DNA of 64,000 bases from the IMG/VR virus record IMGVR_UViG_3300021963_000021, positions 186,001-250,000 of that record. One strand, 5' to 3'. The translations under genes were made by a program, and so were the position numbers. The notes below the pieces were generated by a model. It had not been told where the DNA came from. It was given only the letters and a program-made list of their open reading frames with translations, and did not search any database. This document shows positions 36,226-57,509 of the stretch, in pieces (the stretch's first letter is position 1; every line of letters begins with the position of its first letter). Source of the DNA: a virus.

Positions 36226-36259
36226 CATATGCTCCTATGCTTAGTTAAACAATACTTAT

Positions 36260-42181: not shown

Positions 42182-42394
42182 TCATTTTGATGATAGCAGA
42201 TCTTGAGCTTGTCGTACTTCGTTTTCTAAGTACTCAATTCTTGCTGCCGCTTCGTCTAACAAAGTGGCTATTTTATCTGGTGCGCCTTCTTCTACGCTCT
42301 TACGACCAGGAATTTGTCTCCTAATTTCAGCTCGCTTACGAAGTCGAAACACCAGACTCTGCTCGCTAACGGGCAGGTGGCTTTCATCTTTCAT
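42182..42394 (-). CDS. Small coiled-coil protein
   Basis: 70 residues with a basic middle (RLRKRAEIRRQI) and a C-terminal coiled coil (LLDEAAARIEYLENEVRQAQ). Coupled to the RNA ligase gene (ATGA at 42391-42394) and followed by a terminator. No family recognised. Confidence 0.5.
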   Translation of the reverse strand: MKDESHLPVSEQSLVFRLRKRAEIRRQIPGRKSVEEGAPDKIATLLDEAAARIEYLENEVRQAQDLLSSK

Positions 42395-43281
42395 ATCCTC
42401 TCCATAAAGTTTCTAACCCAGGCCAGACGAGCTTGCTCGTCCATGGCTGTGTATTCAACAATGTTGGCACGGATAGCATCTACTAGTGGATAGTATTCTT
42501 CGTCTAGTTGGTGCTTGATATCTTTGTTCAAGTCCACTAACTTGTCTGTACGTGGATTGCGAGCAACCCATTTTGAAGTCAAGTAGTAAGGGCTCTTGAT
42601 CTTAGCACTCACACCATCTTCTGTATAGAATACATAACCTTCGTGTTTACATTCCTTGGCCATTGCTGATAGTCGTGCCATGTTAGTTGTTACACTTTCT
42701 GGCACAAAGCATCCTAGCACACGACTCATTTCCATTAACATGAACGGATCATGTTCGACTATAGAGTTCCATTTGTTTTCACGATAGCCTAGGATGTACA
42801 TGCCTTCCTTTTCAGGAACGATATGCGGGTCGTTACGGTGAACGCACTCAAACATAAATGTATATCCTTGCCAACGATCACACAAGTCAAAATACTTTGT
42901 TTCGTCGATCAGTTCACGTGCCATTTTAACATAGTCGCTGTCTGTGCTACCAGTAGTAGACACCAACAGTTTGCCGTTATGATAAGTCATAGCAACCATG
43001 AATCCGTTGACTTTACGAAATGCTGTAACTTTGGTTTCTGGAGCAAGCACTGGTGCTTCCTTTTCGATGCCATAGTTATAGATTTTAGTAAATGGGTATG
43101 TCACTAGATTGAAGTCAGTGTCTACAATGGATCCACGACATTCCGCAATAAAGGGATTCCACAGACTATCGTAGAACACTTTCTTCTTGTATTTGAGCAC
43201 GTAGATACCTTCACCAGCTTCTTTCATATTAACTAGGTTGCTGGTTTCTACATACTCCTTCAGCTCATCTTTAAACATCAT
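42391..43281 (-). CDS. RNA ligase, T4 Rnl1 family
   Basis: 296 residues. Nucleotidyl-transfer motif I is AFRKVNG (KxxG, with Lys as the AMP acceptor). Further motifs are YTFMFECVHRNDPHIV (IIIa), EGYVFYTEDG (IV) and AKIKSPYY (V). T4 Rnl1 seals tRNA broken in the anticodon loop by host nucleases. The C-terminal domain is present but shorter than in T4. It is the last of a phosphoesterase-kinase-ligase gene set with ATGA coupling to the kinase. Confidence 0.88.
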   Translation of the reverse strand: MMFKDELKEYVETSNLVNMKEAGEGIYVLKYKKKVFYDSLWNPFIAECRGSIVDTDFNLVTYPFTKIYNYGIEKEAPVLAPETKVTAFRKVNGFMVAMTYHNGKLLVSTTGSTDSDYVKMARELIDETKYFDLCDRWQGYTFMFECVHRNDPHIVPEKEGMYILGYRENKWNSIVEHDPFMLMEMSRVLGCFVPESVTTNMARLSAMAKECKHEGYVFYTEDGVSAKIKSPYYLTSKWVARNPRTDKLVDLNKDIKHQLDEEYYPLVDAIRANIVEYTAMDEQARLAWVRNFMERI

Positions 43282-43739
43282 GTTCTCCAGATTTCTTTAT
43301 AGCCTTCTTCTTCAGTTGGCCATTCAAAATTATCAATCATGCTGCGGACAACATGATCGGGGATTGATTTGCCAGGGCGGCTAGCCAAACGACGAGCGTG
43401 TTCTTCGGCAGACGGAGTAGGAAAGACCACAGCGATGTGCCAGTAGTCGGGTAACATACGGAACTTTCTAGCACGACTTTTTACAGTTGTGTTAGTTTGG
43501 TCCCAAATGATATCTCGACCTGCGGCCCTAGCACGAACTACAGCGCGAGTCATTAGACGAACAGCACGTGGCATTACTTCGTCAAAGACTTCGTTGTAGG
43601 TCTTGCCTAGGCGTTTAGCAAACTTTTCTACATAGACATCGGTGGAAATATATTCCATACCTACTGCCCAGGTTTGGCCTGCCAGCCATGTAGTTTTGCC
43701 ACTAGCCGGCACTCCAACTAAAATATATGCTTTAGCCAT
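43278..43739 (-). CDS. Polynucleotide-kinase-like P-loop kinase
   Basis: 153 residues. Walker A GVPASGKTT at residues 8-16, a D..N segment (IIWDQTNTT) and a lid with R residues (ARRLASRPGK) match T4 PNK-type 5'-kinases; the phosphatase domain of T4 Pnkp is absent. It would phosphorylate 5'-OH RNA ends before ligation. It is coupled to the phosphoesterase gene (8-nt overlap) and the ligase gene. Confidence 0.82.
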   Translation of the reverse strand: MAKAYILVGVPASGKTTWLAGQTWAVGMEYISTDVYVEKFAKRLGKTYNEVFDEVMPRAVRLMTRAVVRARAAGRDIIWDQTNTTVKSRARKFRMLPDYWHIAVVFPTPSAEEHARRLASRPGKSIPDHVVRSMIDNFEWPTEEEGYKEIWRT

Positions 43740-44280
43740 GATGTGATTTTACCTCTCCGGTCATTGCGTCTGCGATTGCACGTTCCATAGTAACAGCGAT
43801 CATTCCTGTCGCATCCATGCCCATATCACGACAGCGATAACGTTCCATTCCACTGGTACCACCGTGTAAGTGTCCGTGGAAATGAACAGCACCTCTGTGC
43901 ATTTGATCCCATTCAGCGATAGGATAATGGAACATAACTACCCTAGTTTTTTCATATGTCATACACAAGTACGGATGTACTTCTGCGAAACAACTACGAA
44001 ACACAGGGTCGTTTAACAATTTGCGATCGTGGTTGCCCTCGATCAAAATTTTTGTACCATTTAACCGACGCATGATGTTTACTGCTTTTGCCGCAGGCAA
44101 GAACGCAACATCACCTAATATGTAGACTGTGTCTTCCGGAGCGATAGTGTTATTCCATTCCAACACCATTTGCTCGTTCATATAGTCTACATCGTTGTTA
44201 AATCTTGCTCTCGACTGTGGACAGAATTTCATGATATTGGCATGCCCAAAGTGTAAGTCACTGGTTATCCATGTAGTCAT
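43732..44280 (-). CDS. Metallophosphoesterase
   Basis: 182 residues, calcineurin-like. The metal-binding motifs are SDLHFGH (D-x-H), GDVAF (GD), EGNHDRK (GNHD) and HFHGHLHG (GHxH). Position and the neighbouring kinase and ligase suggest a 2',3'-cyclic phosphate or 3'-phosphate removing step on RNA. In bacterial Pnkp the phosphatase is also of this family. Other phosphodiesters cannot be excluded. Confidence 0.85.
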   Translation of the reverse strand: MTTWITSDLHFGHANIMKFCPQSRARFNNDVDYMNEQMVLEWNNTIAPEDTVYILGDVAFLPAAKAVNIMRRLNGTKILIEGNHDRKLLNDPVFRSCFAEVHPYLCMTYEKTRVVMFHYPIAEWDQMHRGAVHFHGHLHGGTSGMERYRCRDMGMDATGMIAVTMERAIADAMTGEVKSHHG

Positions 44281-45206: not shown

Positions 45207-45884
45207 TTATCTCCATAGTAAGTCAAAGTTACCTTTGAGAACAGTAGAACATTTTGATCTACAACCAGTTAAATGATCTTGAACAGAGTCATCTTGGAAT
45301 CGGTAAGTGCGGATTTTATCTCCACGCATACCTGATCCTACCTGTTGGCGTCTATCACTTGCTATACTATTATTATACGATCTTTTGAGTTCTAAGTCAA
45401 TGCGCTGTTGTAAAGTTGCCATAGCTTCGTTGTAGCTATTTTGGCGACTTCGGCATTCGGCTTTGGCTATTATACCTGTAGGAAGGTGTGTGATGCGGCA
45501 GCTATTTTGGTGCTTGTTCCGAAATTGTCCACCCGCTCCTGTACCGCTGTACCATTCGATCTTGAGATCGTTTTTGGTAACAGCAACAGAGTCAGGATCT
45601 GGAGACCCGTCTATGACAGCGACGGTAACAGTTGAAGTGTGGACACGACCTTTTCGTTCGGTCGGAGGCACTCGCTGGATACGATGACCACCGGGCTCAT
45701 TATCTAAGCCTGATAGATCTACACCCTCTACAAGTATCGAACACTCGCCAGGACGTACATCTATCAGGCGGGTAGTTCAACCCAGTTTATTTCCTAGTTT
45801 TTGGTAAGCGGTCGCGAGATCACTTACGAATAGTTTACTATCTTCGCCGCCTTCTGCGGCACGGATTTCAATAGTGCGTTTCAT
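45207..45884 (-). CDS. prf: Class I release factor (RF1-type) with in-frame UGA
   Basis: ATG 45884 has a strong SD (AAGGAG, 6 nt). The protein begins KRTIEIRAAEGGEDSKLFVS, matching the RF1 segment IRAGTGGDEAALFAG, and so lacks RF1 domain 1. Codon 36 is TGA (45777-45779). The same frame continues with homologous sequence: GGHRIQRVPPTERKGRVHTS, with PPT at 73-75 in the place of the PAT anticodon-like motif, and GTGAGGQ (GGQ at 118-120). Total length is 225 codons including the UGA. Counting from the conserved Tyr27, the UGA falls where RF1 has Trp. The P-x-T tripeptide predicts recognition of UAA/UAG. A functional protein needs readthrough. Confidence 0.82.
45372..45400 (-). promoter_or_regulatory. 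Sigma-70 promoter inside the release factor gene
   Basis: TTGACT (45395-45400), 17-nt spacer, TATAAT (45372-45377). It points toward the phosphatase and RNA repair genes. Confidence 0.65.
45777..45779 (-). other. In-frame UGA codon of the release factor gene
   Basis: Context GGT-TGA-ACT. Both sides are homologous to RF1 in the same frame; both other frames meet stops within about 5 and 22 codons. Possible recoding site read by Trp tRNA. Confidence 0.75.
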
Positions 45885-46099
45885 GGTTTTCTCCTTTTAT
45901 ACCAACTGTACTTGTCACCATTTGGTAACAGACCGTTGTTAACAGAATCGGCGCCAAAGACGCCGACTATTTCCATACCGTCACCGTTTATGGTAACAAG
46001 TATGCCTAATTCTTTTGCGAAAGCCATTGCTTCCGATAGATCTTTTACTGCTTCCACACAACCTCTACCCGTTGTGTCATTCCATTTTACTTCATACAT
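45881..46099 (-). CDS. Small protein, unknown
   Basis: 72 residues, mixed composition, ending YSWYKRRKP. Its TGA overlaps the release factor ATG (ATGA). An ATAAATA element (46104-46110) lies immediately before the start, so a leaderless late transcript is possible. No family recognised. Confidence 0.5.
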   Translation of the reverse strand: MYEVKWNDTTGRGCVEAVKDLSEAMAFAKELGILVTINGDGMEIVGVFGADSVNNGLLPNGDKYSWYKRRKP

Positions 46100-46110
46100 T
46101 CTTTATTTAT

Positions 46111-46188
46111 TGGCCTGCCCGGAGGGATTCGAACCCCCGACCCACAGCTTAGAAGGCTGTTGCTCTAATCCTGCTGAGCTACGGGCAG
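46111..46188 (-). tRNA. tRNA-Arg (anticodon TCT)
   Basis: Cloverleaf with acceptor CTGCCCG/CGGGCAG, anticodon loop CTTCTAA and encoded CCA. Reads AGA. Confidence 0.93.
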
Positions 46189-46193
46189 AAATT

Positions 46194-46269
46194 TGGAGCG
46201 GGAGACGAGTCTCGAACTCGCGACATCTTGCTTGGAAGGCAAGTGCTCTACCAACTGAGCTACTCCCGC
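46194..46269 (-). tRNA. tRNA-Gly (TCC)
   Basis: Acceptor GCGGGAG/CTCCCGC, anticodon stem CTTGC/GCAAG, loop CTTCCAA, encoded CCA. Reads GGA. Confidence 0.95.
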
Positions 46270-46275
46270 AATGTC

Positions 46276-46479
46276 TTAGGTTGGAAAATATTTTTCCATA
46301 ACTTCCAATTTGTCCATATACTCAGCAATCTGAGCGACTTCTTTTTCGATAGCATCCATAATATCACTGTGTTCGTGGATTGCTGTTGGGTTGTTCAGCA
46401 TCACTTCGACATTCATTTTATGTTTAGTGATGTGTGATCGAAAGTGTTCTTTCGATGCTTCAATGAGTTCTTTACGCAT
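46276..46479 (-). CDS. Small helical protein
   Basis: 67 residues from ATG 46479, mainly helical (EHFRSHITKHKMNVEVML, EKEVAQIAEYMDKLEVM). The ATG overlaps the TAA of the upstream gene. A gene between two tRNA groups; unknown function. Confidence 0.55.
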   Translation of the reverse strand: MRKELIEASKEHFRSHITKHKMNVEVMLNNPTAIHEHSDIMDAIEKEVAQIAEYMDKLEVMEKYFPT

Positions 46480-46736
46480 TATGAGTTCACCGTTTCGCTG
46501 TTTTGCTTCGAATTCCACTCTTGTTTGGCCTTTTGATAGGCGTCTTCGCTTAGGCCATGCCAACCAATACAGTCGCCTGTAGGACTACGACCACAACCGC
46601 AAGTACCTTTTTTCATATCTTCAACTTTTGGAGTCACTTTGTCTTTCCTAAAAATTAAATCGTAATTGTTGTTAAACGCTTTCGATGATGCTCTTGATTG
46701 TATAGCATCACCAGTTATATCGTTTCTTGCTACCAT
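46479..46736 (-). CDS. Small cysteine-rich protein
   Basis: 85 residues. The N-terminus ARNDITGDAIQSR is distinctive, and CGCGRSPTGDCIGWHGL is a compact Cys/His cluster that could bind zinc. No enzyme motif. TAATG coupling to the gene downstream. Confidence 0.6.
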   Translation of the reverse strand: MVARNDITGDAIQSRASSKAFNNNYDLIFRKDKVTPKVEDMKKGTCGCGRSPTGDCIGWHGLSEDAYQKAKQEWNSKQNSETVNS

Positions 46737-46752
46737 CTACATATCCTCAAAT

Positions 46753-46831
46753 TGGTCCGGGAAGTGGGATTCGAACTCACGATCTCCTGCTCCCAAAGCA
46801 GGCGCTTTAAGCCAGACTAAGCTACACCCGG
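46753..46831 (-). tRNA. tRNA-Pro (TGG)
   Basis: Anticodon stem CCTGC/GCAGG, loop TTTGGGA, T arm GTGAG-TTCGAAT-CCCAC, encoded CCA. Acceptor has one T-T mismatch at 6:67. Reads CCA. Confidence 0.92.
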
Positions 46832-46835
46832 AAAT

Positions 46836-46909
46836 TGGTTGCGGGTCCTGGAATCGAACCAAGGACTAGAGCTTATGAGACTCTCGAGATACCCCTTCTC
46901 CAACCCGCT
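46836..46909 (-). tRNA. tRNA-Met or tRNA-Ile2 (CAT)
   Basis: Anticodon loop CTCATAA. Acceptor AGCGGGT/ACCCGCA with an A1-A72 mismatch; encoded CCA. The anticodon stem lacks the GGG/CCC of initiators. A second CAT tRNA is at 50001, so one may be an AUA-reading tRNA-Ile whose C34 is modified to lysidine. Confidence 0.85.
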
Positions 46910-46916
46910 ATAAACC

Positions 46917-47492
46917 TTATAGGATTCCTTCTTTGGTCAGTGTTGCTACTGCTTCATCGCTTAGAGGAATCTCTGTCTTAATGTTAAGTTCAAGGACTTC
47001 GTCATTGATCTTTTGTTTCTGCTTGCGTAGATTGCTAAGTTCAGTCTTGAACTTGTCAATGTCTCCTGTGCTGAGCACAGAAGTGTCTACGGTATCACTG
47101 TAGCCGTAAATGCTACGACGACTAGTTTCGTTCTTGTCGTTGCGTATCTTATCCAACTTGCCGTTGATTACGACCAAGTCAGCGACTGGTGCGTGTCTGA
47201 CCATTGCTTCTAGCTGACTGATACGCTTGTCAATGAAAGCCGCACGAGTCAACAACAGGTCGATTCCGCTCTGGGCGTTTGCCGCACCTACTAGGCCGCG
47301 GATGTTATATTGCGCAGCCAACAACAGGCCACGACGCTGATCGTTTTCCAACAGCTTCTTGTTGGCAGCATCAATTTCGGCCTTTGCGTCCTGGAACTCA
47401 TTAAGCTGGACATCCAACTTAATATCGATATTTTTCAAAGCATCGCTGATGCTGTTCTGGACTACGTTTGCTTTACGAAGAGTGATGTTCAT
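46917..47492 (-). CDS. Coiled-coil early protein, unknown
   Basis: 191 residues, nearly all helical with heptad-like segments (FQDAKAEIDAANKKLLEND, FKTELSNLRKQKQKINDEV). No membrane segment. Start at ATG 47492, 24 nt after the -10 of a perfect sigma-70 promoter. The tRNA genes downstream are probably on the same transcript. Function unknown. Confidence 0.6.
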   Translation of the reverse strand: MNITLRKANVVQNSISDALKNIDIKLDVQLNEFQDAKAEIDAANKKLLENDQRRGLLLAAQYNIRGLVGAANAQSGIDLLLTRAAFIDKRISQLEAMVRHAPVADLVVINGKLDKIRNDKNETSRRSIYGYSDTVDTSVLSTGDIDKFKTELSNLRKQKQKINDEVLELNIKTEIPLSDEAVATLTKEGIL

Positions 47493-47515
47493 GTGTTTTT
47501 CCTTATGATTTATCT

Positions 47516-47544
47516 ATTATACTGCCTTGACATGCTGTTGTCAA
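47516..47544 (-). promoter_or_regulatory. Consensus sigma-70 promoter
   Basis: TTGACA (47539-47544), 17-nt spacer, TATAAT (47516-47521). Drives the coiled-coil gene and the tRNAs beyond it. Confidence 0.85.
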
Positions 47545-47562
47545 CAAAAAAATGACGGATCG

Positions 47563-47789
47563 GTAAAAGGTCAAGTAATAGACCGGACAATAGACAGTGG
47601 AAGGTTTGTAATCTTCCTATGACAATGTACAAGGTACAAAGCACAGAGGTCTATATATTTCCGATTAACAAATGACATTCTATTAGGGATCGGATCACAT
47701 AAACACGGACAGTTTTCAAGACTGTTTGCGTTAAGTTCGGATTAGGCTTGGAGCCTAAGCCATTTTGTCCATCCTCATCTACCTTTTAC
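47563..47789 (-). ncRNA. Structured spacer RNA between tRNA-Thr and promoter
   Basis: No gene is visible. A 9-bp closing helix (GTAAAAGGT 47781-47789 with ACCTTTTAC 47563-47571, as read on the minus strand) encloses several hairpins. These include GGCTT-N7-AAGCC, an anticodon-arm-like ACAGT-CTTGAAA-ACTGT, a GGAAG/CTTCC hairpin and ATAGACC/GGTCTAT. Probably a structured RNA of unknown class. Confidence 0.4.
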
Positions 47790-47821
47790 TTCACCGGCTA
47801 GTTTTAATAAACTAGCAAAAC

Positions 47822-47897
47822 TGGTGCCGGTTGTCGGATTCGAACTGACCACATCCGCCTTACAAGAGCGGCGCTCTACCTAATGAGCTAAACCGGC
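47822..47897 (-). tRNA. tRNA-Thr (TGT)
   Basis: Acceptor GCCGGTT/AACCGGC, loop CTTGTAA, encoded CCA. Reads ACA. Confidence 0.95.
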
Positions 47898-47920
47898 ATA
47901 AAACTATATATCAAACAACT

Positions 47921-48012
47921 TGGCGGAGATAGTTGGATTCGAACCAACGGTAGAGTTTAACCCCTACGACGGTTTAGCAAACCGCTGCCTTCAGCCACTC
48001 AGCCATATCTCC
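47921..48012 (-). tRNA. tRNA-Ser (GCT)
   Basis: Acceptor GGAGATA/TATCTCC, loop TTGCTAA, long variable arm, encoded CCA. Reads AGC/AGU. Confidence 0.94.
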
Positions 48013-48016
48013 GTAT

Positions 48017-48106
48017 TGGCGGAAGCGGTGAGATTCGAACTCACGGAACATTTCTGTTCGTCGGTTTTCAAGACCGGTGCAATCAGCCAGACTCTGCCAC
48101 ACTTCC
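48017..48106 (-). tRNA. tRNA-Ser (TGA)
   Basis: Acceptor GGAAGTG/CGCTTCC, loop CTTGAAA, long variable arm, encoded CCA. Reads UCA. Confidence 0.94.
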
Positions 48107-48111
48107 ATAAA

Positions 48112-48187
48112 TGGTAGGTCCTGACAGTCTCGAACTGCCGACATCCGCCGTGTAAAGGCGGCGCTCTACCAACTGAGCTAAGGACCC
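48112..48187 (-). tRNA. tRNA-Val (TAC)
   Basis: Acceptor GGGTCCT/AGGACCT, anticodon stem CCGCC/GGCGG, loop TTTACAC, encoded CCA. Reads GUA. Confidence 0.94.
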
Positions 48188-48189
48188 AA

Positions 48190-49254
48190 AAGATCTATTC
48201 TGAAACACACTGGCTGTTGCTTGTCATTGTCTTTAACTACCTCTCGGTGGCGGTAGACCAATGTGTTTTAGAATAGTGTTAAGACTGAGATTACATCTTA
48301 ACCATAAGCACCTCTAGCATTACCGTACACCTTGCGAGCATACGTTCTCTAGATATCCACTGAGCCCTATTGCTAGGTATCCCAGTCTGCTTACAGTATC
48401 GCCGTTTTAAGTCAGGCAGTAGACTTGACGCCATATGCTATTCTACACCATCTATCCCGTTAACCTTGCGAGCTATTCGAGTGCGCTAACACTCTACGAA
48501 ACTTCCAGTATAAACTAATGTCACCTTGCGAGCTTCATTAGACTTGATTGTGTTACCACTCAAGTATTAGATACTTTTCACATATGACCGAGGCAGTCTT
48601 TGCGTTTTTGTTTAATGGCTGGAGTTGAACCAGCAACATTCTGTTTAATAGACAGACGATCTACCATTGATCTACATTGCAACCTACCGTGATGAGCTAC
48701 CTCTGTTGCTGTATACTCTTTTGGAATACACAATACAACTCACCACATACCTTTCCTCTCGCGGAGTAATCAGTGATGTTTCACGACCAGTGTCCTGCGT
48801 CAAAACAGTCCACCGCCCATTTACATTGCGCTAAAGCCCTTAGGAGCGACCCCTCGGACAATAACACTACCCTTTCTCATACCAGTTAATAAGTTGGTTT
48901 TGTATGGAAGTCAGCACCACCTGTTACTTTTCACGCACCCTGGTTCCCTTGCGGGCCAGTCGATACGCATTCTTCCCCATACACTTACTTGGCTGTTACA
49001 TCCACCGGTTTTGTCAGTGAACGCATCCTCACGGATGTGAGCAGGCTTGTTTACACGAACCATTGCTGGCGCTAGTATGTAGGCATTCTAGCTTTGGGTC
49101 GATCGCTCGACTTATTCTTCGTAGACGGCGGACCGCCTACAGGATGATAAACCACCCTAGAATTTTTAAACCATATAAAAACACACTCACGGACATGGCT
49201 TGTTGGATGCAGCCTGCCTAACCGAACCAACTTCGGCAGTGTGTTTTTATATGG
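48190..49254 (-). ncRNA. Large ornate structured RNA candidate (GOLLD/ROOL-like)
   Basis: About 1.06 kb without a coding frame, between tRNA-Leu and tRNA-Val. At the 5' end (minus strand) a perfect 17-bp helix (49171-49187 with 49238-49254) holds two hairpins. Their loops GTTGG and CCAAC are complementary and could kiss (49222-49236 and 49197-49214). The 3' end has a 19-bp helix with two mismatches (about 48194-48212 with 48259-48277). In the middle the 11-mer GCTCGCAAGGT occurs three times, near 48333, 48468 and 48528, two of them in clear hairpin loops. A degenerate tRNA-like domain lies inside (48611-48681). Large RNAs of the GOLLD and ROOL classes occur in phage tRNA arrays and GOLLD can contain a tRNA. 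Class assignment is inference. Confidence 0.55.
48611..48681 (-). tRNA. Degenerate tRNA-like element (ATT anticodon)
   Basis: A D arm (GATC/GATC), an anticodon arm (TCTGT-CTATTAA-ACAGA) and a T arm (GCTGG-TTCAACT-CCAGC) are present. The acceptor pairs in only 5 of 7 positions and there is no CCA, unlike the canonical tRNAs here. An ATT anticodon is unusual in bacteria and a normal tRNA-Asn(GTT) exists at 49755. Likely a pseudo-tRNA or a domain of the large structured RNA. Confidence 0.5.
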
Positions 49255-49335
49255 TGCCCCAACCGAGACTTGAACTCGGACGCACTAGGCACTGGCTTCT
49301 AAGACCAGCGTGTCTACCAATTCCACCATCGGGGC
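49252..49335 (-). tRNA. tRNA-Leu (TAG)
   Basis: Acceptor GCCCCGA/TTGGGGC, anticodon stem CTGGT/GCCAG, loop CTTAGAA, long variable arm, encoded CCA. Reads CUA. Its CCA end overlaps the first helix of the large structured RNA. Confidence 0.94.
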
Positions 49336-49393
49336 AATGTTTGTCTAACAATGTTAAAGAGCGTTACGCTGTTTTGTTTAACAGCATATGTAT

Positions 49394-49422
49394 ATTATAT
49401 CTTCTAACTGCCGCTGTGTCAA
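49394..49422 (-). promoter_or_regulatory. Consensus sigma-70 promoter
   Basis: TTGACA (49417-49422), 17-nt spacer, TATAAT (49394-49399). Drives tRNA-Leu(TAG), the large structured RNA and the tRNAs downstream. Confidence 0.85.
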
Positions 49423-49452
49423 CACATTCTGGACATATTAGAAAATATTTTT

Positions 49453-49526
49453 TGGTGCCCAGACCAAGAATTGAACTTGGAATAATCGCTTATCAAGCGA
49501 CCGTTATACCATTTAACTATCCGGGC
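49453..49526 (-). tRNA. tRNA-Ile (GAT)
   Basis: Acceptor GCCCGGA/TCTGGGC, loop TTGATAA, encoded CCA. Reads AUC/AUU. Confidence 0.94.
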
Positions 49527-49535
49527 ATATTGAAT

Positions 49536-49750
49536 TTGTTGTAGTAGTGCCACCATCGTTATTGGCACCATTCACCTGGATTAACAAAGCCCGGGCAGGA
49601 CTCGGTACGTCACTTGGGATACTAGTCCAGTTAGCAACCAATCTGCGCCGATCTTCCGATCAGCCGGGAGTTGAACCCGTCCCCTTCTACTATTTCGGTA
49701 GTTCGAACTTACCTAGATAGCGTGACATTCTCTTGCTGACACTACAACAA
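49536..49750 (-). ncRNA. Structured spacer RNA between tRNA-Asn and tRNA-Ile
   Basis: A perfect 10-bp closing helix (49536-49545 with 49741-49750) fills the gap between two tRNAs. Inside are a T-arm-like CGGG-TTCAACT-CCCG hairpin (near 49672), a CTAC/GTAG hairpin and GTGCCA/TGGCAC. It carries AGCAAGAGAAT (49727-49737), also found in the next structured spacer. No coding frame. Confidence 0.45.
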
Positions 49751-49754
49751 AACT

Positions 49755-49829
49755 TGGCTCCCCAGGGTGGGATCGAACCACCGACAAACGGATTAACAGT
49801 CCGCTACTCTACCTCTGAGCTACTAGGGA
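49755..49829 (-). tRNA. tRNA-Asn (GTT)
   Basis: Acceptor TCCCTAG/CTGGGGA, loop CTGTTAA, encoded CCA. Reads AAC/AAU. Confidence 0.94.
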
Positions 49830-49835
49830 ATAAAT

Positions 49836-49910
49836 TGGTGGAGGATAGCGGAATCGAACCGCTGACTCAAGCGTGCAAGGCTAGTGTTTTCCCAATTAGA
49901 CTAATCCCCC
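49836..49910 (-). tRNA. tRNA-Ala (TGC)
   Basis: Acceptor GGGGGAT/ATCCTCC, loop CTTGCAC, one T-T mismatch in the anticodon stem, encoded CCA. Reads GCA. Confidence 0.92.
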
Positions 49911-49914
49911 AAAT

Positions 49915-49990
49915 TGGCGCCTCGTAGGGGAGTCGAACCCCTGTGTTCCGCTAGACAGGCGGGCATAATAGACCGTTATATGAACGAGGC
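49915..49990 (-). tRNA. tRNA-Asp (GTC)
   Basis: Acceptor GCCTCGT/ACGAGGC, loop CTGTCTA, encoded CCA. Reads GAC/GAU. Confidence 0.94.
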
Positions 49991-50000
49991 AAAACTTGTT

Positions 50001-50076
50001 TGGTAGCAGTAGTTGGACTCGAACCAACGATAAACACCGTATGAAGGTGCCGCATTAGCCGCTATGCTATACTGCC
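50001..50076 (-). tRNA. tRNA-Met (CAT)
   Basis: Acceptor GGCAGTA/TACTGCT, loop TTCATAC, encoded CCA. Elongator-type by lack of initiator stem features. Confidence 0.9.
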
Positions 50077-50080
50077 ATAT

Positions 50081-50225
50081 CCATTTAGAAGTAACACAGT
50101 TTACTATTCTCTTGCTACCGAATGTGTAGTACCTTACAGGTCTACGTTACTAGTATCATCGGCTTTCCGCTTCGAACAAGGTTAGGTCTGATCATGACCC
50201 GACGAGCTGTGTTACTACTAAATGG
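50081..50225 (-). ncRNA. Structured spacer RNA between tRNA-Lys and tRNA-Met
   Basis: An 18-bp closing helix with one A-A mismatch (50081-50099 with 50207-50225) occupies nearly the whole spacer. The interior holds ACCTT/AAGGT and smaller hairpins and the shared AGCAAGAGAAT (50106-50116). No coding frame. Confidence 0.5.
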
Positions 50226-50228
50226 TAA

Positions 50229-50305
50229 TGGTGTGCCCTCTGGGATTCGAACCCAGGACCCTCTGATTAAAAGTCAGATGCTCTAACCTACTGAGCTAAG
50301 GGCAC
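50229..50305 (-). tRNA. tRNA-Lys (TTT)
   Basis: Acceptor GTGCCCT/AGGGCAC, anticodon stem TCTGA/TCAGA, loop CTTTTAA, encoded CCA. Reads AAA. Confidence 0.95.
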
Positions 50306-50360
50306 AATCGTTTACCAGATTTACCATCATCTCCCATGGTAATTTCCTCCTTAAAAAACT

Positions 50361-50436
<76 letters not shown>

Positions 50437-50442
50437 ATTATA

Positions 50443-50518
50443 TGGTACACGGTACGGGAATCGAACCCGTCTTTCCGCCTTGAAAGGGCAGCGTCCTCAA
50501 CCGATAGACGAACCGTGC
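50443..50518 (-). tRNA. tRNA-Glu (TTC)
   Basis: Acceptor GCACGGT/ACCGTGT, loop CTTTCAA, encoded CCA. Reads GAA. Confidence 0.94.
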
Positions 50519-50546
50519 GTAAAAAATTTTCAATTGTCAAAGAACG

Positions 50547-50623
50547 TGGAGCACAGGGTGGGACTCGAACCCACGAATCAACAGTTTTGCAGACTGCGCC
50601 ATTGGCCTCTCTGGTACCTGTGC
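50547..50623 (-). tRNA. tRNA-Cys (GCA)
   Basis: Acceptor GCACAGG/CCTGTGC, loop CTGCAAA, encoded CCA. First tRNA after the promoter at 50638. Confidence 0.94.
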
Positions 50624-50637
50624 GTTAAAGTCTATCA

Positions 50638-50666
50638 AGTATATGATAAATCAAACAGCTTGTCAA
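50638..50666 (-). promoter_or_regulatory. Consensus sigma-70 promoter for tRNAs
   Basis: TTGACA (50661-50666), 17-nt spacer, TATACT (50638-50643). Transcription would start about 8 nt before tRNA-Cys. Confidence 0.85.
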
Positions 50667-50751
50667 CTACTATTTTAGGTTTTTGTCGATGATGATCATC
50701 AAAACCGCTAACATGATTAGAACTGCCAATGCCCCATGTGAGTCTCCTTGT

Positions 50752-50825
50752 TGGTGCTCTAGCCAAGAATTGAACTTGAAATTCAGTCTTACCAAGACTG
50801 TGTTATACCATTTAACTACAAGAGC
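50752..50825 (-). tRNA. tRNA-Thr (GGT)
   Basis: Anticodon stem CAGTC/GACTG, loop TTGGTAA, encoded CCA; acceptor has one T-T mismatch. Reads ACC/ACU. Confidence 0.92.
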
Positions 50826-50826
50826 A

Positions 50827-50905
50827 TGGTACCCCTGCTCAGATTTGAACTGAGAACAACTTCTCCTTTTGAGAGAGACGACTTTACCAATTTGTCCACA
50901 GGGGC
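50827..50905 (-). tRNA. tRNA-Leu (CAA), reduced variable arm
   Basis: Acceptor GCCCCTG/CAGGGGT, anticodon stem TCTCT/GGAGA, loop CTCAAAA, encoded CCA. Sequence resembles tRNA-Leu but the variable region is only about 7 nt rather than a long arm. Confidence 0.8.
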
Positions 50906-50911
50906 ATACTT

Positions 50912-50987
50912 TGGTGCTGCCTCCTGGGATCGAACCAGGTTCCTCGGTTCTTCAGACCGGTGCTATGACCACATCAGCTAAAGCAGC
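50912..50987 (-). tRNA. tRNA-Phe (GAA)
   Basis: Acceptor GCTGCTT/AGGCAGC, anticodon loop CTGAAGA, encoded CCA. Reads UUC/UUU. Confidence 0.94.
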
Positions 50988-50997
50988 ATTTAATCTT

Positions 50998-51072
50998 TGG
51001 TGGATCTTGTAGGATTTGAACCTACGACCAACAGCGTGTCGAGCTGCTACTCTACCACTGAGCTAAAGATCC
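50998..51072 (-). tRNA. tRNA-Val (GAC) with C at position 33
   Basis: Acceptor GGATCTT/AAGATCC, anticodon stem GCAGC/GCTGT, loop TCGACAC, encoded CCA. Position 33 is C instead of the near-universal U. Confidence 0.8.
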
Positions 51073-51073
51073 T

Positions 51074-51147
51074 TGGGGTGAAACCGGGAATCGAACCCTG
51101 TCTACCTGTTTCACAGACAGGTGTGCGACCACTACACTAGTAACACC
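51074..51147 (-). tRNA. tRNA-His (GTG)
   Basis: Loop CTGTGAA, anticodon stem CCTGT/ACAGG, and the His-type GGTG...CACCCCA ends. The acceptor has mismatches. It begins 1 nt from the preceding tRNA. Confidence 0.88.
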
Positions 51148-51152
51148 ATTAT

Positions 51153-51229
51153 TGGCCGGCCCGGAGAGACTCGAACTCCCAACCTCTAGTTTCGAAGACT
51201 AGCACTCTAATCCATTGAGTTACGGACCG
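51153..51229 (-). tRNA. tRNA-Arg (TCG)
   Basis: Acceptor CGGTCCG/CGGGCCG, anticodon stem CTAGT/ACTAG, loop CTTCGAA, encoded CCA. Reads CGA. Confidence 0.94.
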
Positions 51230-51235
51230 ATAACT

Positions 51236-51309
51236 TGGCTGGGGATGATGGATTCGAACCACCACAGACGGAATCAAAATCCGTAGTCCTACCATTAGAC
51301 GAATCCCCA
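51236..51309 (-). tRNA. tRNA-Gln (TTG)
   Basis: Acceptor TGGGGAT/ATCCCCA, loop TTTTGAT, encoded CCA. Reads CAA. Confidence 0.94.
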
Positions 51310-51313
51310 ATAT

Positions 51314-51387
51314 TGGCACCGGACCAGAGACTCGAACTCCGACGAACGGTTTTGGAGACCGTCATGCTGCCATTACATCAGCCCGAT
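51314..51387 (-). tRNA. tRNA-Trp (CCA)
   Basis: Acceptor ATCGGGC/GTCCGGT, anticodon stem ACGGT/ACCGT, loop CTCCAAA, encoded CCA. Reads UGG and could misread UGA, relevant to the release factor gene. Confidence 0.93.
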
Positions 51388-51388
51388 A

Positions 51389-51742
51389 TTATTTGATTGT
51401 GTCGTACCGAGTATCTTCGGTTTCGATAAAGTTGACCATTCCAACAGAGATATGATATCCTTCTGTTTTCATAGCTTGATATGCTTTTTGATACACGTCT
51501 GATTCTAAGAGATTCTTTTGAAAATCTCTAGCTTTAAACATGTCTTTAGAAAAGAAGTAGACGTTTTCTACTTGTGTTGTAGCATCCCAATCCCATGACT
51601 GCTTATCTTCTATAAGCCCTTGTTCTACACAGTCTTTTAGAAACGCAACGAATTCTAAGGAGATATCTTCTCTAAAGTTGATATCATCTTGGGTCTGAAA
51701 TTCAGCTCCGTAGTAAATTTGCTGTATTTGTGTAGCTATCAT
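51389..51742 (-). CDS. Small protein inside the tRNA cluster, unknown
   Basis: 117 residues, acidic, with no recognised domain. ATG 51742 has AAGGA 8 nt upstream. It is preceded by a late promoter element (51761-51767) and ends 2 nt from tRNA-Trp. A protein gene embedded among tRNA genes. Confidence 0.6.
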   Translation of the reverse strand: MIATQIQQIYYGAEFQTQDDINFREDISLEFVAFLKDCVEQGLIEDKQSWDWDATTQVENVYFFSKDMFKARDFQKNLLESDVYQKAYQAMKTEGYHISVGMVNFIETEDTRYDTIK

Positions 51743-51760
51743 GATTGGGATCCTTTTAGC

Positions 51761-51767
51761 TATTTAT
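51761..51767 (-). promoter_or_regulatory. Late promoter element next to tRNA-Tyr
   Basis: ATAAATA immediately 3' of tRNA-Tyr, ahead of the gene at 51742. It would switch this gene to late transcription. Confidence 0.4.
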
Positions 51768-51768
51768 C

Positions 51769-51855
51769 TGGTGGAGGAAGTAAGATTCGAACCTACTAGT
51801 CCCTAAGAAAACAGATTTACAGTCTGCCGCACCCCTCCAACTGTGCCGTTCCTCC
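51769..51855 (-). tRNA. tRNA-Tyr (GTA)
   Basis: Acceptor GGAGGAA/TTCCTCC, loop CTGTAAA, long variable arm, encoded CCA. Confidence 0.94.
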
Positions 51856-51856
51856 A

Positions 51857-52108
51857 TAATAAGTTACGCACTCATAGTCTATGACTACCTGTCCTTCCAG
51901 TCAACGGAAGTAGAATGCGTGTATTGAAATGCTCTCCGCTACGCTGTCATGCCCGTTCCAAGGGTCAAGAGAAAGCATTTTAATACGCTACCATTTATAC
52001 TCCTGCGTTTTCGCCACAGTTTCATCCGGTAGGCCGCCCGTTTGCTGGATGTTTAACGTGCCCAGCGAGGTCCTCGTTACCTCTTTTTCACACGTAGTAC
52101 AAAATGAA
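51857..52108 (-). ncRNA. Structured RNA upstream of tRNA-Tyr
   Basis: No coding frame. On the minus strand a 13-position helix with one mismatch (51921-51933 with 51974-51986) encloses a CCC/GGG hairpin. Next to it CGCATTC/GAGTGCG closes a junction with CTTCC-N7-GGAAG and TAGTC-ATA-GACTA. It lies between the terminator at 52111 and tRNA-Tyr. Confidence 0.4.
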
Positions 52109-52135
52109 AAACCCCAGGGTTTCTAATCCTGGGGT
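52103..52135 (-). terminator. Terminator before the structured RNA
   Basis: 8-bp stem ACCCCAGG/CCTGGGGT (52111-52135) with a 9-nt loop and TTTTTC after it on the minus strand. Confidence 0.8.
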
Positions 52136-52159
52136 CCTTTGGGTAAGTTTGTGTTGCTT

Positions 52160-52297
52160 TTACGCTACACGATCCTCCCGGGACCCCTGAATCTCTGGTG
52201 TACGATCATTTGATAGACTAATCGCAGACCAATAAGAGGGCATAAAGCCGCCTTGTTTGGCTGAGCAATATTGTCTATGAAGTGATGTCGTTTTCAT
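52160..52297 (-). CDS. 45-residue protein between promoter and terminator
   Basis: ATG 52297 to TAA 52160 encodes MKTTSLHRQYCSAKQGG followed by FMPSYWSAISLSN and a charged end. Two sigma-70 promoters lie upstream and a terminator downstream, so this is a separate short transcript. The SD (AAGGA) is rather distant (13 nt). It could also be a non-coding RNA. Confidence 0.4.
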   Translation of the reverse strand: MKTTSLHRQYCSAKQGGFMPSYWSAISLSNDRTPEIQGSREDRVA

Positions 52298-52348
52298 TTG
52301 ATTCAAAATTTCCTTAAAAGTTACACGTTATCTCTAACGCATGTCCTT

Positions 52349-52377
52349 ATTGTACATTTATTTAGCCTGCTTGTCAA
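52349..52377 (-). promoter_or_regulatory. Sigma-70 promoter (proximal)
   Basis: TTGACA (52372-52377), 17-nt spacer, TACAAT (52349-52354). Reads into the 45-residue gene. Confidence 0.75.
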
Positions 52378-52430
52378 CCCCTATTTTTCTTTCTGGAAAA
52401 ATTTCTGGTCTTCTTACAAACTATGCTTCT

Positions 52431-52459
52431 ATTATATGTTCTTTTTATTTATGTGTCAA
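52431..52459 (-). promoter_or_regulatory. Sigma-70 promoter (distal)
   Basis: TTGACA (52454-52459), 17-nt spacer, TATAAT (52431-52436). Perfect consensus, in tandem with the promoter at 52349. Confidence 0.85.
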
Positions 52460-52488
52460 TTAAAATATACCCAGATTATGTGGCATTT

Positions 52489-53055
52489 TTACAACATTTG
52501 GCTAACATCTTCGTTGAACCTTATGGTAGCAACGACCCTTAGTGTGTCATAGGGATTGTGTACACCATGCGGAACATTGATGCGTAGTATAGCAGGTTTT
52601 GTTAGTTCAAGTCTATGGACTTCTCTTACCGAACTGTGTGAGTTGCCTCCGCAGTCATAGACTGGATAGAACACATCTGGATCGTCATTAACCTTTTCGT
52701 AGAACAGTGTTGTGGTGCCTTCGCAGTGTTCTAAAGGAAAATTCATAGCAAAGGTTGGTTCGTACAAAGTCCAATCTTCGTCTTTGGCATCAATGTGAAT
52801 GAATACTGACTCAGGATTAGCAGGGTCTGTGATTTCCATACTGTTCTTTGGAATACAGAAAAAGATCAATTGTCTAATAGTAAGATTAAAGTTGTCCTTG
52901 AGCATCTTGACCAGGTCAGGAAGTTCTCTTTCGACTTCATCAGGGAAGTGGCACCACCAAAGAGTGTCGGTGTTTCCTTTGGTATTGCGAAAATCAATCA
53001 ATGCCTGTCTATGTTTTTCAAAGTCAGGTATGTTTATAAATTTTGAATATTTCAT
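52489..53055 (-). CDS. 2OG-Fe(II) oxygenase-like protein
   Basis: The start is placed at ATG 53055, which overlaps the upstream TGA (ATGA). 188 residues. VFIHIDAKDEDW gives an H-x-D pair, and VPHGVHNPYDTLRVVATIRF gives the distal His and a basic residue in the order expected for a double-stranded beta-helix oxygenase. Identity as an oxygenase is inferred from this pattern. Last gene of the enzyme cluster. Confidence 0.5.
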   Translation of the reverse strand: MKYSKFINIPDFEKHRQALIDFRNTKGNTDTLWWCHFPDEVERELPDLVKMLKDNFNLTIRQLIFFCIPKNSMEITDPANPESVFIHIDAKDEDWTLYEPTFAMNFPLEHCEGTTTLFYEKVNDDPDVFYPVYDCGGNSHSSVREVHRLELTKPAILRINVPHGVHNPYDTLRVVATIRFNEDVSQML

Positions 53056-54200: not shown

Positions 54201-55301
54201 TCACAAGGAATCACCTTGGACAAAATTTTTAATTTCAGATACTGCTGCTTGATTTAGTAAAGTCGATTCTCCGCACTGGTGAGCGCACCTATCTAATCTA
54301 TTACAATTAGTCCAACTGTCTTTTATCTCGTTGAATATTTTACTGTTGACGATGTCTGATAGGGCTGTGTGATTTAAATCAATGCTTTTTAGCCCACCAT
54401 TGTTTTCTATCATTTCAAATAGTTTAGCTCTGTCTGGGTGAAGCTCGGGTTCGTAGCCATAGAAACGATCCAACAGCCATCCGCAGGGCAACACATAGCC
54501 TTCTGCTGACACACAGACTAGTCCAGTTTTCTGTGCCATACAATTTATGTTAGTGTTCTTAAGGTACGAATCGTAATCGCCAAATTTCTCTACGATTTTG
54601 TCATAGACATCATAGCCTCTGTTGAGGTATTTTTTATCAGTGGCAGGTTTAAGCCATCTTATGATTTTGTTATCCTTGTCGTGTACAGGACTTGCGTCTA
54701 TTTTTTTATGTGTTTTATCAATAAATCTAGAAGTGAACTTGACTACGAATCCTTTGAATCCTAATTCAGTACTGAGTTTTCTTGCTGCGTTGACTTGATG
54801 TTCATTGTGCTGGAATACGATATAACTCCATACAGCGTTGCCGCCTGCTTGTATAAAGTTGCGAGCGTTGTCCATAATTTTATCAAAGTCTGTGCCTATC
54901 CTGTAGAGATGATTAGTGTCTTCGAGACCGTCTACGCCAAAAAACACAGTATCCTGCGGTCTAAGAGTCTTGGCTAATTCTTTCCACCAAGCACTACTGC
55001 GAAGGCTTCCGTTAGTTCTTATGGTTATCTGTGCCTGAGACACAGAGTGAAAGTGTTTAACGATATCTATTAGATCAGGATGTACACAGGGATCACCGTA
55101 GGTGCCACACAATCTTATTTCTTTCATGTGTGCTAGTTCTTTTTCTTTGAACTTTTCTCCAATCCATTCAAGGCTGAGATCCACTAACGGTAGTGTAGGC
55201 CAAGTTTTTCCTCCATAGTAATTTCTAATACATTGAGGACAAGACGCATTACACCTTGTAGTGAGTTCAAATTCTATCTGTGTTAGTTTATCGTAGAACA
55301 T
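54201..55301 (-). CDS. Radical SAM protein with SPASM-like C-terminus
   Basis: 366 residues from ATG 55301, which shares a base with the TAA of the amidinotransferase gene. The radical SAM triad C17-x3-C21-x2-C24 (CNASCPQC) binds the [4Fe-4S] cluster. LCGTYGDPCVHP is the GGE-like SAM-binding region. C-terminal cysteines (GYVLPCGWL, CNRLDRCAHQC) suggest auxiliary clusters as in SPASM proteins. These enzymes carry out hard radical steps on peptides or small molecules; substrate unknown. Confidence 0.85.
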   Translation of the reverse strand: MFYDKLTQIEFELTTRCNASCPQCIRNYYGGKTWPTLPLVDLSLEWIGEKFKEKELAHMKEIRLCGTYGDPCVHPDLIDIVKHFHSVSQAQITIRTNGSLRSSAWWKELAKTLRPQDTVFFGVDGLEDTNHLYRIGTDFDKIMDNARNFIQAGGNAVWSYIVFQHNEHQVNAARKLSTELGFKGFVVKFTSRFIDKTHKKIDASPVHDKDNKIIRWLKPATDKKYLNRGYDVYDKIVEKFGDYDSYLKNTNINCMAQKTGLVCVSAEGYVLPCGWLLDRFYGYEPELHPDRAKLFEMIENNGGLKSIDLNHTALSDIVNSKIFNEIKDSWTNCNRLDRCAHQCGESTLLNQAAVSEIKNFVQGDSL

Positions 55302-56356
55302 TAACTGTAGTCTAGTAATTCGCCACGACGTCTTAGGTCTAATGTGGTACAATGAAAGCCGCCTGACAAAGTACTGGCGTGCCGCATAGGCAATGGAATC
55401 ACATCAAAGCCGCGTGATTCTAACATTTTAATCAACGGCAACTGCTCTTTGCCTACCATTATTGTTTTTGGATCTACACTTAGTACATTCATGCCTATGA
55501 ATCTACTGGTAGTTGCTAGTCCACCCGGGCACCATTTGCTCACAGGTATTTCTACAACATCGTCAAAATATATTTTGTCCCACTTTTCAAATATTTTAGG
55601 ACAGTTATTGGGATTTACCCTAGAGGAGTTTAATAACACAGTGTGATCGTTCAGTGGAATGATGGTACTGTCAAAGTGTCCGAAACTATAAATGTGTTCA
55701 GCCATGTGTATTCTATAGCCCAATGGTTCTAACAGATTCTTTAACCACTTCATACCCCATTTATTTCCTGTGTTAGAAATTTGAAACAGAATGTCTTTGC
55801 CTAATCTCACACAGTTAGGAGCATCAAACACTGGCTCTAAATCTCTCAGTGTTGGTTTTGATAGGTCTTCAAAGGTATAACTCTCATCAGGCAGTATAGG
55901 TTTAGGTGCCGACACCCAAGCACATCCGTCTTTGATTGCGTCTAACATGATATCGTGATAGGCCCTTGTTTCAAAATATCTAGCTCGCATACAACTAGGA
56001 GTTTCTATCATGATGTTGCCTAATGGCAGTAACAGATCTCTGGGGCACCAAGTATGATACCCAGAAGTCTTCCAATCAGGAGTGCCGAATTCAGCATCGT
56101 GATTTATGTCTTTAGGTCTATGTACAATAACTCCTAGAGACTTTAGTGTGTCAGACATGACTTCTAGATCTTCATTAGCTTCGTCTATCAGTGCTTTTGG
56201 AAATGGTCCTTCTAGTCCTTTGATCTGTTCTTGTGAATATTCAGTGTAGACCATGCTGTGTGTACTGATGTCAATGTTGGCCATGCGAGCACCAGTGGCT
56301 GTGCCGACAATAATTTCCTCTAACGGATCCCAATGATTGTGACTGGATATTTTCAT
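55301..56356 (-). CDS. Amidinotransferase (glycine amidinotransferase-like)
   Basis: 351 residues. Typical family features are WDPLEEIIVGTA, YHTWCPRDLLLPLGN, the His segment SFGHFDSTIIPL and the nucleophile Cys in SGGFHCTTLDLRR near residue 335. The reaction moves the amidino group of arginine to an amine via an amidino-cysteine. In bacteria relatives make guanidino compounds in natural products. Strong SD (AAGGAG). Coupled to the radical SAM gene that follows. Confidence 0.85.
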   Translation of the reverse strand: MKISSHNHWDPLEEIIVGTATGARMANIDISTHSMVYTEYSQEQIKGLEGPFPKALIDEANEDLEVMSDTLKSLGVIVHRPKDINHDAEFGTPDWKTSGYHTWCPRDLLLPLGNIMIETPSCMRARYFETRAYHDIMLDAIKDGCAWVSAPKPILPDESYTFEDLSKPTLRDLEPVFDAPNCVRLGKDILFQISNTGNKWGMKWLKNLLEPLGYRIHMAEHIYSFGHFDSTIIPLNDHTVLLNSSRVNPNNCPKIFEKWDKIYFDDVVEIPVSKWCPGGLATTSRFIGMNVLSVDPKTIMVGKEQLPLIKMLESRGFDVIPLPMRHASTLSGGFHCTTLDLRRRGELLDYS

Positions 56357-56357
56357 G

Positions 56358-57509
56358 TTACTCCTTTACTGTAACTAGATGGGTAAAACTTTTCTGTTTA
56401 AACCATCTTGTTAATTCTTCTTCTGTTATGCTGTAATTATTAGATAAAAAATCTAATAGGCTGTTGTTTCTTTCTGCTTCTTTAACAAATATGTTAAAGT
56501 TATGTTCTATGTCATTACGTATAGCTGCTTTATTTTGTTTTATACTTTGTAAGAATACTTCTGTGTTTAACACTATTAGATCAAAGCGATTGTTTTCGTT
56601 AGATAGATGTCCATACGGGAACATATATTCTTCAAATGTCCTTAATCCTTTTGACACTAGATATTGATATTGTTCTACTTCGCCTGCGAAAATAAAAGGA
56701 TGTCTGTTAACCACAGTGCGCCATGTCTTTTCTGTTAGAAATTTATAATCTGTAGCAGGCGGGTAAGCATTGCCTTCGGATATGATACTGAAACAGGTGC
56801 CGTAAAACACACTGGGATCTATCCAACCAGGATTTTGACACCAATCAGTTTCGTGTATTTTAGTTTCTAATAGCTCTGCTGAGGATAGCCTAGAGTAATC
56901 TTTGGCTGTTGAATACAGATCGTCTATGGATCTATCACAGTCATTTAAGAATTGATCATAGTTATACATATCAGCTAAGGCATTTCTACACCATTCTTTA
57001 TCTGACTCAGTCCAAGGAGGGAAAAAACTATACTCTGATCGATTCAGCAGGCCGCTGTTGTAGAATTTACTCAACAATACTATTCTATTTGATCTAGATG
57101 GTACGCCACCTAGGAACAAAAACTTTTCTGCTGTTGGATTCCACGTAGCAGTTTCTTTGTTATTGTAGCTTTGATAGACCATGTTTAAGTTGAAATCCCA
57201 AAACATGATCTTATAGTTTAGATTTCTTTCGTCTAACTTGTGTTGATAGTCATCGCACATGCCTACAATCAATACAAGATCATTTATATTTTTTGAATAG
57301 CAATAGTCTTGTATACGCTGTAACAGAGAATAGTATTCTTCGTTGTCTTTGTATAAGAATCCGTCAACTAACATTAGACCAATAATAGAATCGCAGCCTT
57401 CTTGGCTGGCAATATCTATTTCTTTTAACACTAGGTCTTTGGTTAGGTCTAAAATGTCTACAGATTTGGTAGTATATAACACTTCGAAATTTATTATCTT
57501 AGCTTTCAT
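56358..57509 (-). CDS. Glycosyltransferase-like protein
   Basis: 383 residues. The region S.ISEGNAYPPATDYKFLTEKT followed by WRTVVNRHPFIFAG and YLVSKGLRTFEEY is the pattern of the C-terminal part of GT10/exostosin-type transferases (E.......T.K..........PFI..G......L...GF..F). The N-terminal half is not recognised. It may add a sugar. Overlaps the PLP enzyme gene by 11 nt. Confidence 0.6.
   Translation of the reverse strand: MKAKIINFEVLYTTKSVDILDLTKDLVLKEIDIASQEGCDSIIGLMLVDGFLYKDNEEYYSLLQRIQDYCYSKNINDLVLIVGMCDDYQHKLDERNLNYKIMFWDFNLNMVYQSYNNKETATWNPTAEKFLFLGGVPSRSNRIVLLSKFYNSGLLNRSEYSFFPPWTESDKEWCRNALADMYNYDQFLNDCDRSIDDLYSTAKDYSRLSSAELLETKIHETDWCQNPGWIDPSVFYGTCFSIISEGNAYPPATDYKFLTEKTWRTVVNRHPFIFAGEVEQYQYLVSKGLRTFEEYMFPYGHLSNENNRFDLIVLNTEVFLQSIKQNKAAIRNDIEHNFNIFVKEAERNNSLLDFLSNNYSITEEELTRWFKQKSFTHLVTVKE

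Follow-up and report, generated by a model that had tools for sequence, protein, structure and literature searches.

The window, a stretch of 64,000 nucleotides spanning bases 186001-250000 of a 363,943-base (364-kb) phage or virus record, carries 28 tRNA genes detected with ARAGORN, all on the minus strand. Within this array, the ~1.06 kb between tRNA-Leu (49252-49335) and tRNA-Val (48112-48187) is without a convincing protein gene. A preliminary description, made from the letters alone, had proposed there a single ornate RNA of about 1 kb, bounded by long terminal helices and matching in its location the large RNA classes GOLLD and ROOL. All features of this candidate read on the minus strand. 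Our best explanation, which as a whole we hold with high confidence, is that three RNA modules follow one another on that strand in what would be one transcript of the tRNA array: first a spacer hairpin (49255-49170), then a GOLLD RNA of full length (49168 to ~48280), and finally a second spacer hairpin (48276-48195). The features referred to below are:

49394-49422, minus strand: sigma-70 type promoter TTGACA-17-TATAAT, matching 12/12 consensus positions, upstream of tRNA-Leu
49252-49335, minus strand: tRNA-Leu(UAG) (ARAGORN, Rfam), the upstream neighbour, presumed to share the transcript
49170-49255, minus strand: 5' spacer hairpin with arms ACCAUAUAAAAACACACU/AGUGUGUUUUUAUAUGGU and an interior of 52 nt; the 17-bp helix of the preliminary description
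48260-49168, minus strand: GOLLD RNA body (~909 nt), conserved across 11 sequences by alignment and pair counts
48749-49168, minus strand: GOLLD 5' domain (~420 nt), outside the Rfam model; helices 1-22, strong covariation
49049-49152, minus strand: tertiary helix between the loop of the first hairpin, GUUUAU (49152-49147), and the linker GUAAAC (49054-49049); helix 2, 100% paired
48282-48746, minus strand: GOLLD 3' domain (~465 nt), Rfam RF02032 positions 1-416; 211.6 bits, gathering cut-off 150
48689-48746, minus strand: outer stem GUGGUGAG/CUCAUCAC, 48746-48739 with 48696-48689; helix 23, 100% of cells paired
48590-48703, minus strand: pseudoknot helix GAGGUAG/CUGCCUC; helix 25, 100% paired, changes on both sides at 4/7 pairs
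48610-48681, minus strand: tRNA-like domain in the variable linker, with D, anticodon and T arms and a 4-bp acceptor; helices 26-29
48395-48575, minus strand: tertiary helix of the 3' domain, AGUAUC (48575-48570) with GAUACU (48400-48395); helix 31, 100% paired, four sequence versions
48195-48276, minus strand: 3' spacer hairpin with a conserved stem and a hypervariable interior; the 19-bp helix of the preliminary description
48112-48187, minus strand: tRNA-Val(UAC) (ARAGORN, Rfam), the downstream neighbour
43278-44280, minus strand: polynucleotide-kinase-like and phosphoesterase-like genes
42391-43281, minus strand: RNA-ligase-like gene

The overlapping RNA-ligase-1-like, polynucleotide-kinase-like and phosphoesterase-like genes near the array (42391-44280, minus strand) form a probable tRNA repair cluster, and an RF-1 domain protein, recognized by family match (45207-45671, minus strand), is possibly a ribosome-rescue factor; this neighbourhood fits a phage that protects translation. 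Genes of similar size beside the array (54201-63150) include at least three encoding radical-SAM-like proteins. By DNA similarity, the region had no match among 50,697 phage records, and for the tRNA-array part of the window the matches listed were to tRNA genes alone. A 20-mer from the GOLLD 5' domain was not found in bacterial genomes. Phage relatives reached through the protein encoded at 35017-36228 amounted to 37 records, mostly fragments, with a GOLLD in one only.

The covariance search for which the preliminary description had called, to distinguish a known class from a new one, returned GOLLD: the Rfam model RF02032 matches positions 48282-48746 (minus strand) with 211.6 bits against a cut-off of 150 (E 2e-58), over model positions 1-416 of 416, and this is the single copy in the 364-kb record. 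ROOL gave no Rfam match at E up to 5 in the stretch searched. The setting in a phage tRNA array and the size would suit ROOL or another known large RNA class as well, but given these scores the probability of such an identity is negligible. Relatives were fetched from viral contigs with two patterns, one of 16 bases taken at the conserved 3' end and another taken in the 5' domain. GOLLD exceeds the Rfam cut-off in 13 records, with scores of 186-270 bits, and 11 non-redundant sequences, including the window, were aligned end-to-end. A covariance model built on the core of the 5' domain recovers close relatives and, weakly, L155 (15.8 bits, E 0.008); neither L148 nor L156 was matched, and we thus make no claim of a universal 5' domain. 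In L158 (and L067), otherwise nearly identical to L107, a clean 200-nt deletion is present in the 5' domain, which may mean that this domain is dispensable or that the contig is misassembled.

The fold rests on the covariation in this alignment. A consensus structure was obtained from RNAalifold, and a scan for extra covarying runs added the pseudoknot partner and two tertiary helices. The real alignment contains 40 covarying runs vs 1 and 6 after shuffling of the columns, and 24 runs with at least three covarying pairs vs 0. The resulting structure has 279 pairs in 43 helices, with 96.7% of cells paired over the 11 sequences, as compared to 33-41% when the partners are slid; the covariation score likewise falls from 0.481 to 0.042-0.077. 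The preliminary description had made its proposal depend in part on compensatory changes in homologues: 149/279 pairs change on both sides, in 457 cells vs 143 on shuffling, a value that 0/500 shuffles reached. The 420-nt 5' domain, which lies outside the Rfam model, contributes 22 covarying helices, and the 3' region contains helices 23-43. Since the outer stem crosses the GAGGUAG/CUGCCUC helix, which closes the linker bearing the tRNA-like domain, the linker exits and re-enters the fold at this pseudoknot. Both tertiary helices may be intra- or intermolecular, as covariation fits either. The repeated 11-mer CACCTTGCGAGC reported earlier is present at 48328, 48462 and 48522, and corresponds in the RNA to the tip CUC(GCAA)GG, i.e. 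the GNRA tetraloops of three GOLLD hairpins. From sequence comparison, both the fold and the identity of the RNA as a member of the known GOLLD class are almost certain.

From the promoter at 49394-49422, transcription would run through tRNA-Leu and the 5' spacer hairpin into GOLLD. A promoter with at least 11/12 consensus positions is found upstream in 9/10 relatives, and one with 10/12 in L163 (529 nt of sequence there). In L153, L164 and L258, the -10 box ends at most 10 nt from the start of the GOLLD body; this fixes the 5' boundary and places the 17-bp helix outside GOLLD. In the pathway that we propose, host RNA polymerase would transcribe the region from 49394-49422 through tRNA-Leu, and the tRNA maturation enzymes, together with cleavage at the long stems, would release a transcript of ~0.9 kb.

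Both terminal helices are found as described: the 17-bp perfect helix pairs ACCATATAAAAACACAC (49170-49186) with GTGTGTTTTTATATGGT (49239-49255), and the 19-bp helix, with two mismatches at the DNA level, pairs CTATTCTAAAACACATTGG with CCAGTGTGTTTCAGAATAG (48195-48276, minus strand), where the RNA has one A.C mismatch and one U.G wobble. The boundaries drawn from them do not hold, however, as the two helices are separate spacer hairpins flanking the body (48260-49168), outside the GOLLD fold. Likewise, the complementary GTTGG and CCAAC loops are present inside the first helix but belong to the 5' spacer hairpin and not to GOLLD; five bases within 52 nt make a weak match, and the single relative, L304, keeps GTTGG with CCAAT, a G.U. 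The 5' hairpin, which starts at the ACCA end of tRNA-Leu(UAG) and whose interior is 85% identical in L304, is facultative: it is absent from L153, L164 and L258, in which the promoter abuts GOLLD. The 3' hairpin is found in every relative with enough sequence on that side; its upper stem hardly varies, its interior is completely different between relatives, and its lower stem covaries (CUAUUCU/AGAAUAG, UUAUAU/AUAUAA, GAUAUAAG/CUUAUAUC); its A.C or C.A mismatch is mostly fixed, and paired in L150. Both end helices share the core AAACACAYU/ARUGUGUUU, of which the strict form occurs in the window's own genome in these two copies only. The 48-nt interior of the window's 3' hairpin is identical in L302, L303, L365 and L389, and it sits in the frame AUAUAAA/UCUAUAU behind tRNA-Lys in L302, L303 and L365 and in AUUCUAA/UCAGAAU behind GOLLD in the window.

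The same hairpin occurs elsewhere in the tRNA arrays of relatives. Scanning viral contigs with the strand-symmetric pattern CATATNNAAACACAYT-N20-50-ARTGTGTTTNNATATG gave matches in at least 119 contigs vs 0 for a scrambled core; as a class, the long helices exceed chance by a wide margin. Of the 129 hairpins listed, 128 lie in stretches that contain tRNA genes; the nearest tRNA is no more than 30 nt away for 98 of the hairpins, 50 are near tRNAs at both ends, and the frame is often flush between two tRNAs. A looser pattern yielded 206 unique hairpins that fall into 136 interior groups, and matching interiors have the same orientation in 274/276 comparisons. When flush behind a tRNA, the hairpin follows tRNA-Lys(UUU), -Gln(UUG) or -Glu(UUC) in 83/105 cases (67/89 when collapsed by interior group), vs 13.6% of the tRNAs in hairpin loci for these three together; part of this bias will reflect shared ancestry of a few slots. 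With the strand-symmetric pattern, the inner variable pair of 103 oriented hairpins is U.G in 77, C-G in 14, U-A in 12 and C.A in none; that U.G is common but C.A never seen points to selection on the tRNA-sense RNA. Folding is better for the interiors than for shuffled sequence (mean z -0.48, s.e. 0.08), several interior groups display compensatory changes, and identical or near-identical interiors sit in different frames. Rfam, searched to E 5 over window positions 45600-52500, left the spacer hairpins unmatched; at gathering thresholds in 13 hairpin loci, the best 150 of 201 matches were to tRNA and one tmRNA. A tmRNA (beta_tmRNA, 137 bits; the permuted-tmRNA model matches too) lies at 13913-14302 of L287, a viral contig with three spacer hairpins. 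One hairpin had a hit of 21 nt (E 0.2) in Phage NCTB, at a place without an annotated tRNA, which we attribute to chance. A literature search, beyond the reach of which lay many subscription papers, turned up no account of such hairpins between tRNA genes.

We rate the spacer hairpins as probably a new RNA element family. We lean slightly towards a more specific reading, in which the end helices represent a new phage RNA family whose constant frame, ACCAUAUNNAAACACAUU ... AGUGUGUUUNNAUAUGGU, carries one of well over 100 different small structured RNAs as an exchangeable insert. The interiors would then form a shared pool, for instance of decoys or of antitoxin mimics directed at host defences, and recombination at the frame would transfer them from one array to another. 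The alternative that they are plain RNase III processing stems with unconstrained loops is a serious one, to which we nonetheless give less than an even chance: the stems of 17-27 bp are flush with tRNA ends, and the 3' copy stands beside GOLLD in all relatives extending there, but the interiors have better folding than shuffled sequence, contain compensatory changes and pass intact, always in one orientation, from frame to frame, and the constraint on the core AAACACAYU goes far beyond the needs of a stem. If the reading as a family with exchangeable interiors is true, the gaps of phage tRNA arrays would house small structured RNAs organized as a cassette system of wide distribution.

Other non-coding elements are present in the array. 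A 220-nt element (49528-49753, minus strand), flush between tRNA-Asn and tRNA-Ile, recurs in more than 15 further viral contigs with 75-94% identity along most of the element, has compensatory changes at 25/61 pairs (14 sequences) and a T-arm-like GGGUUCAACUCCC, and is without an Rfam match; we consider it a candidate new structured RNA. Between tRNA-Lys and tRNA-Met, a long-stem element with the core AACACAG/CUGUGUU (50077-50232, minus strand), conserved in L150 and L294 and also without an Rfam match, has AGCAAGAGAAU in common with the 220-nt element. Finally, a conserved non-coding stretch of 275 nt (47541-47815, minus strand) lies beside a second 12/12 promoter (47544-47516); it is 75-81% identical in several relatives' contigs, including contigs without GOLLD within the available sequence, and has some covarying pairs.

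An embedded degenerate tRNA had also been recognized in the preliminary description, and it is present in the linker: at 48610-48681 (minus strand), ARAGORN reports a tRNA-Asn(att), and Rfam a tRNA of 54.9 bits that spans model positions 4-67 only. Its D, anticodon and T arms covary (helices 27-29). Instead of a 7-bp acceptor, the domain has four pairs, the outer three positions pairing in 15/30 cells, and a CCA end is found in none of the aligned sequences; the domain is thus tRNA-like, kept for its shape, and not a usable tRNA. The anticodon loop is CUAUUAA in the window (anticodon AUU) and CUNUUAA in 10/10 aligned sequences with the domain, N being A in the window and G, U and C in five, two and two sequences, respectively. 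In L172, a short linker takes the place of the domain, and L155 has a GCU anticodon loop.

It is very improbable that GOLLD releases the embedded domain as a functional tRNA: its three arms are intact and covary, but the acceptor is reduced to four pairs, poorly extended outward and devoid of CCA, and the anticodon AUU of the window stands in an array that already has tRNA-Asn(GUU) and tRNA-Lys(UUU). The truncated acceptor, which makes a decoding role unlikely, is in turn compatible with a decoy, in which GOLLD would display many anticodon loops of the Lys/Asn type (CUNUUAA) and soak up host anticodon nucleases. We regard this as unlikely, notwithstanding the loop, which is kept in all ten sequences that bear the domain while each of the four bases occurs at N, and the kinase-, phosphoesterase- and RNA-ligase-like (tRNA repair) genes nearby (42391-44280), as L172 is devoid of the domain, L155 has GCU in the loop, the nuclease target is putative, and the conservation of the anticodon could be ancestry.

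The solved GOLLD env-38 is a closed homo-14-mer of 380 A, in which the 5' domains (residues 1-420) form caps and the 3' domains (421-833) form rings, with the disordered linker lying inside the cage; for some members, tRNAs are reported within this internal linker (PMC12286853). The domain sizes in the window (~420 and 465 nt) match those of the solved GOLLD, and with the same sizes and layout, the most likely mode of action is to form a cage of many copies with the tRNA-like domain inside. By this analogy, many copies would assemble into a hollow homo-oligomer whose interior would hold the linker with its tRNA-like domain. That the window GOLLD forms such a cage is reasonably probable, even though its 5' domain, the cage cap, is not recognizably shared with the distant GOLLD L148. 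As to its use, the most plausible proposal, held with low confidence, is that the cage would transport or protect some translation-related component while the phage infects. GOLLD, a rare class of RNAs of 0.9 kb, is one of a small number of natural RNAs for which self-assembly into cages free of protein is known, and this giant-phage group provides 11 well-aligned GOLLDs with a covarying 5' domain; the cases with and without a tRNA-like domain, together with the putative natural deletion variant, are material to probe cage and cargo roles.

Among known systems, RNase III processing stems of tRNA and rRNA transcripts resemble the spacer hairpins as long imperfect stems between stable RNAs, whereas the hairpins have a fixed core, exchangeable structured interiors and a fixed orientation, with no Rfam family matched. 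The core sites of integron attC are RYYYAAC and GTTRRRY. The hairpins share with attC an imperfect palindrome and a hypervariable tip, but their arms are AAACACAYT/ARTGTGTTT without a GTTRRRY/RYYYAAC core, it is the variable tip itself that is exchanged and not a flanking gene, and in the tRNA-sense strand U.G occurs whereas C.A never does, which speaks for RNA. As for the large RNAs, ROOL is likewise a large, ornate, cage-forming phage RNA near tRNAs, to whose covariance model the window RNA has no match. With GOLLD (RF02032; env-38), the window RNA has in common a score above cut-off over the full model, the two-domain layout and sizes, the location in a phage tRNA array, a linker that can hold a tRNA, the GNRA tips and the conserved 3'-terminal hairpin UGUAAUCUCAG; it differs in that the covariance model of the 5' domain from its lineage gives no match in L148, and in having a tRNA-like domain with a 4-bp acceptor and flanking spacer hairpins.
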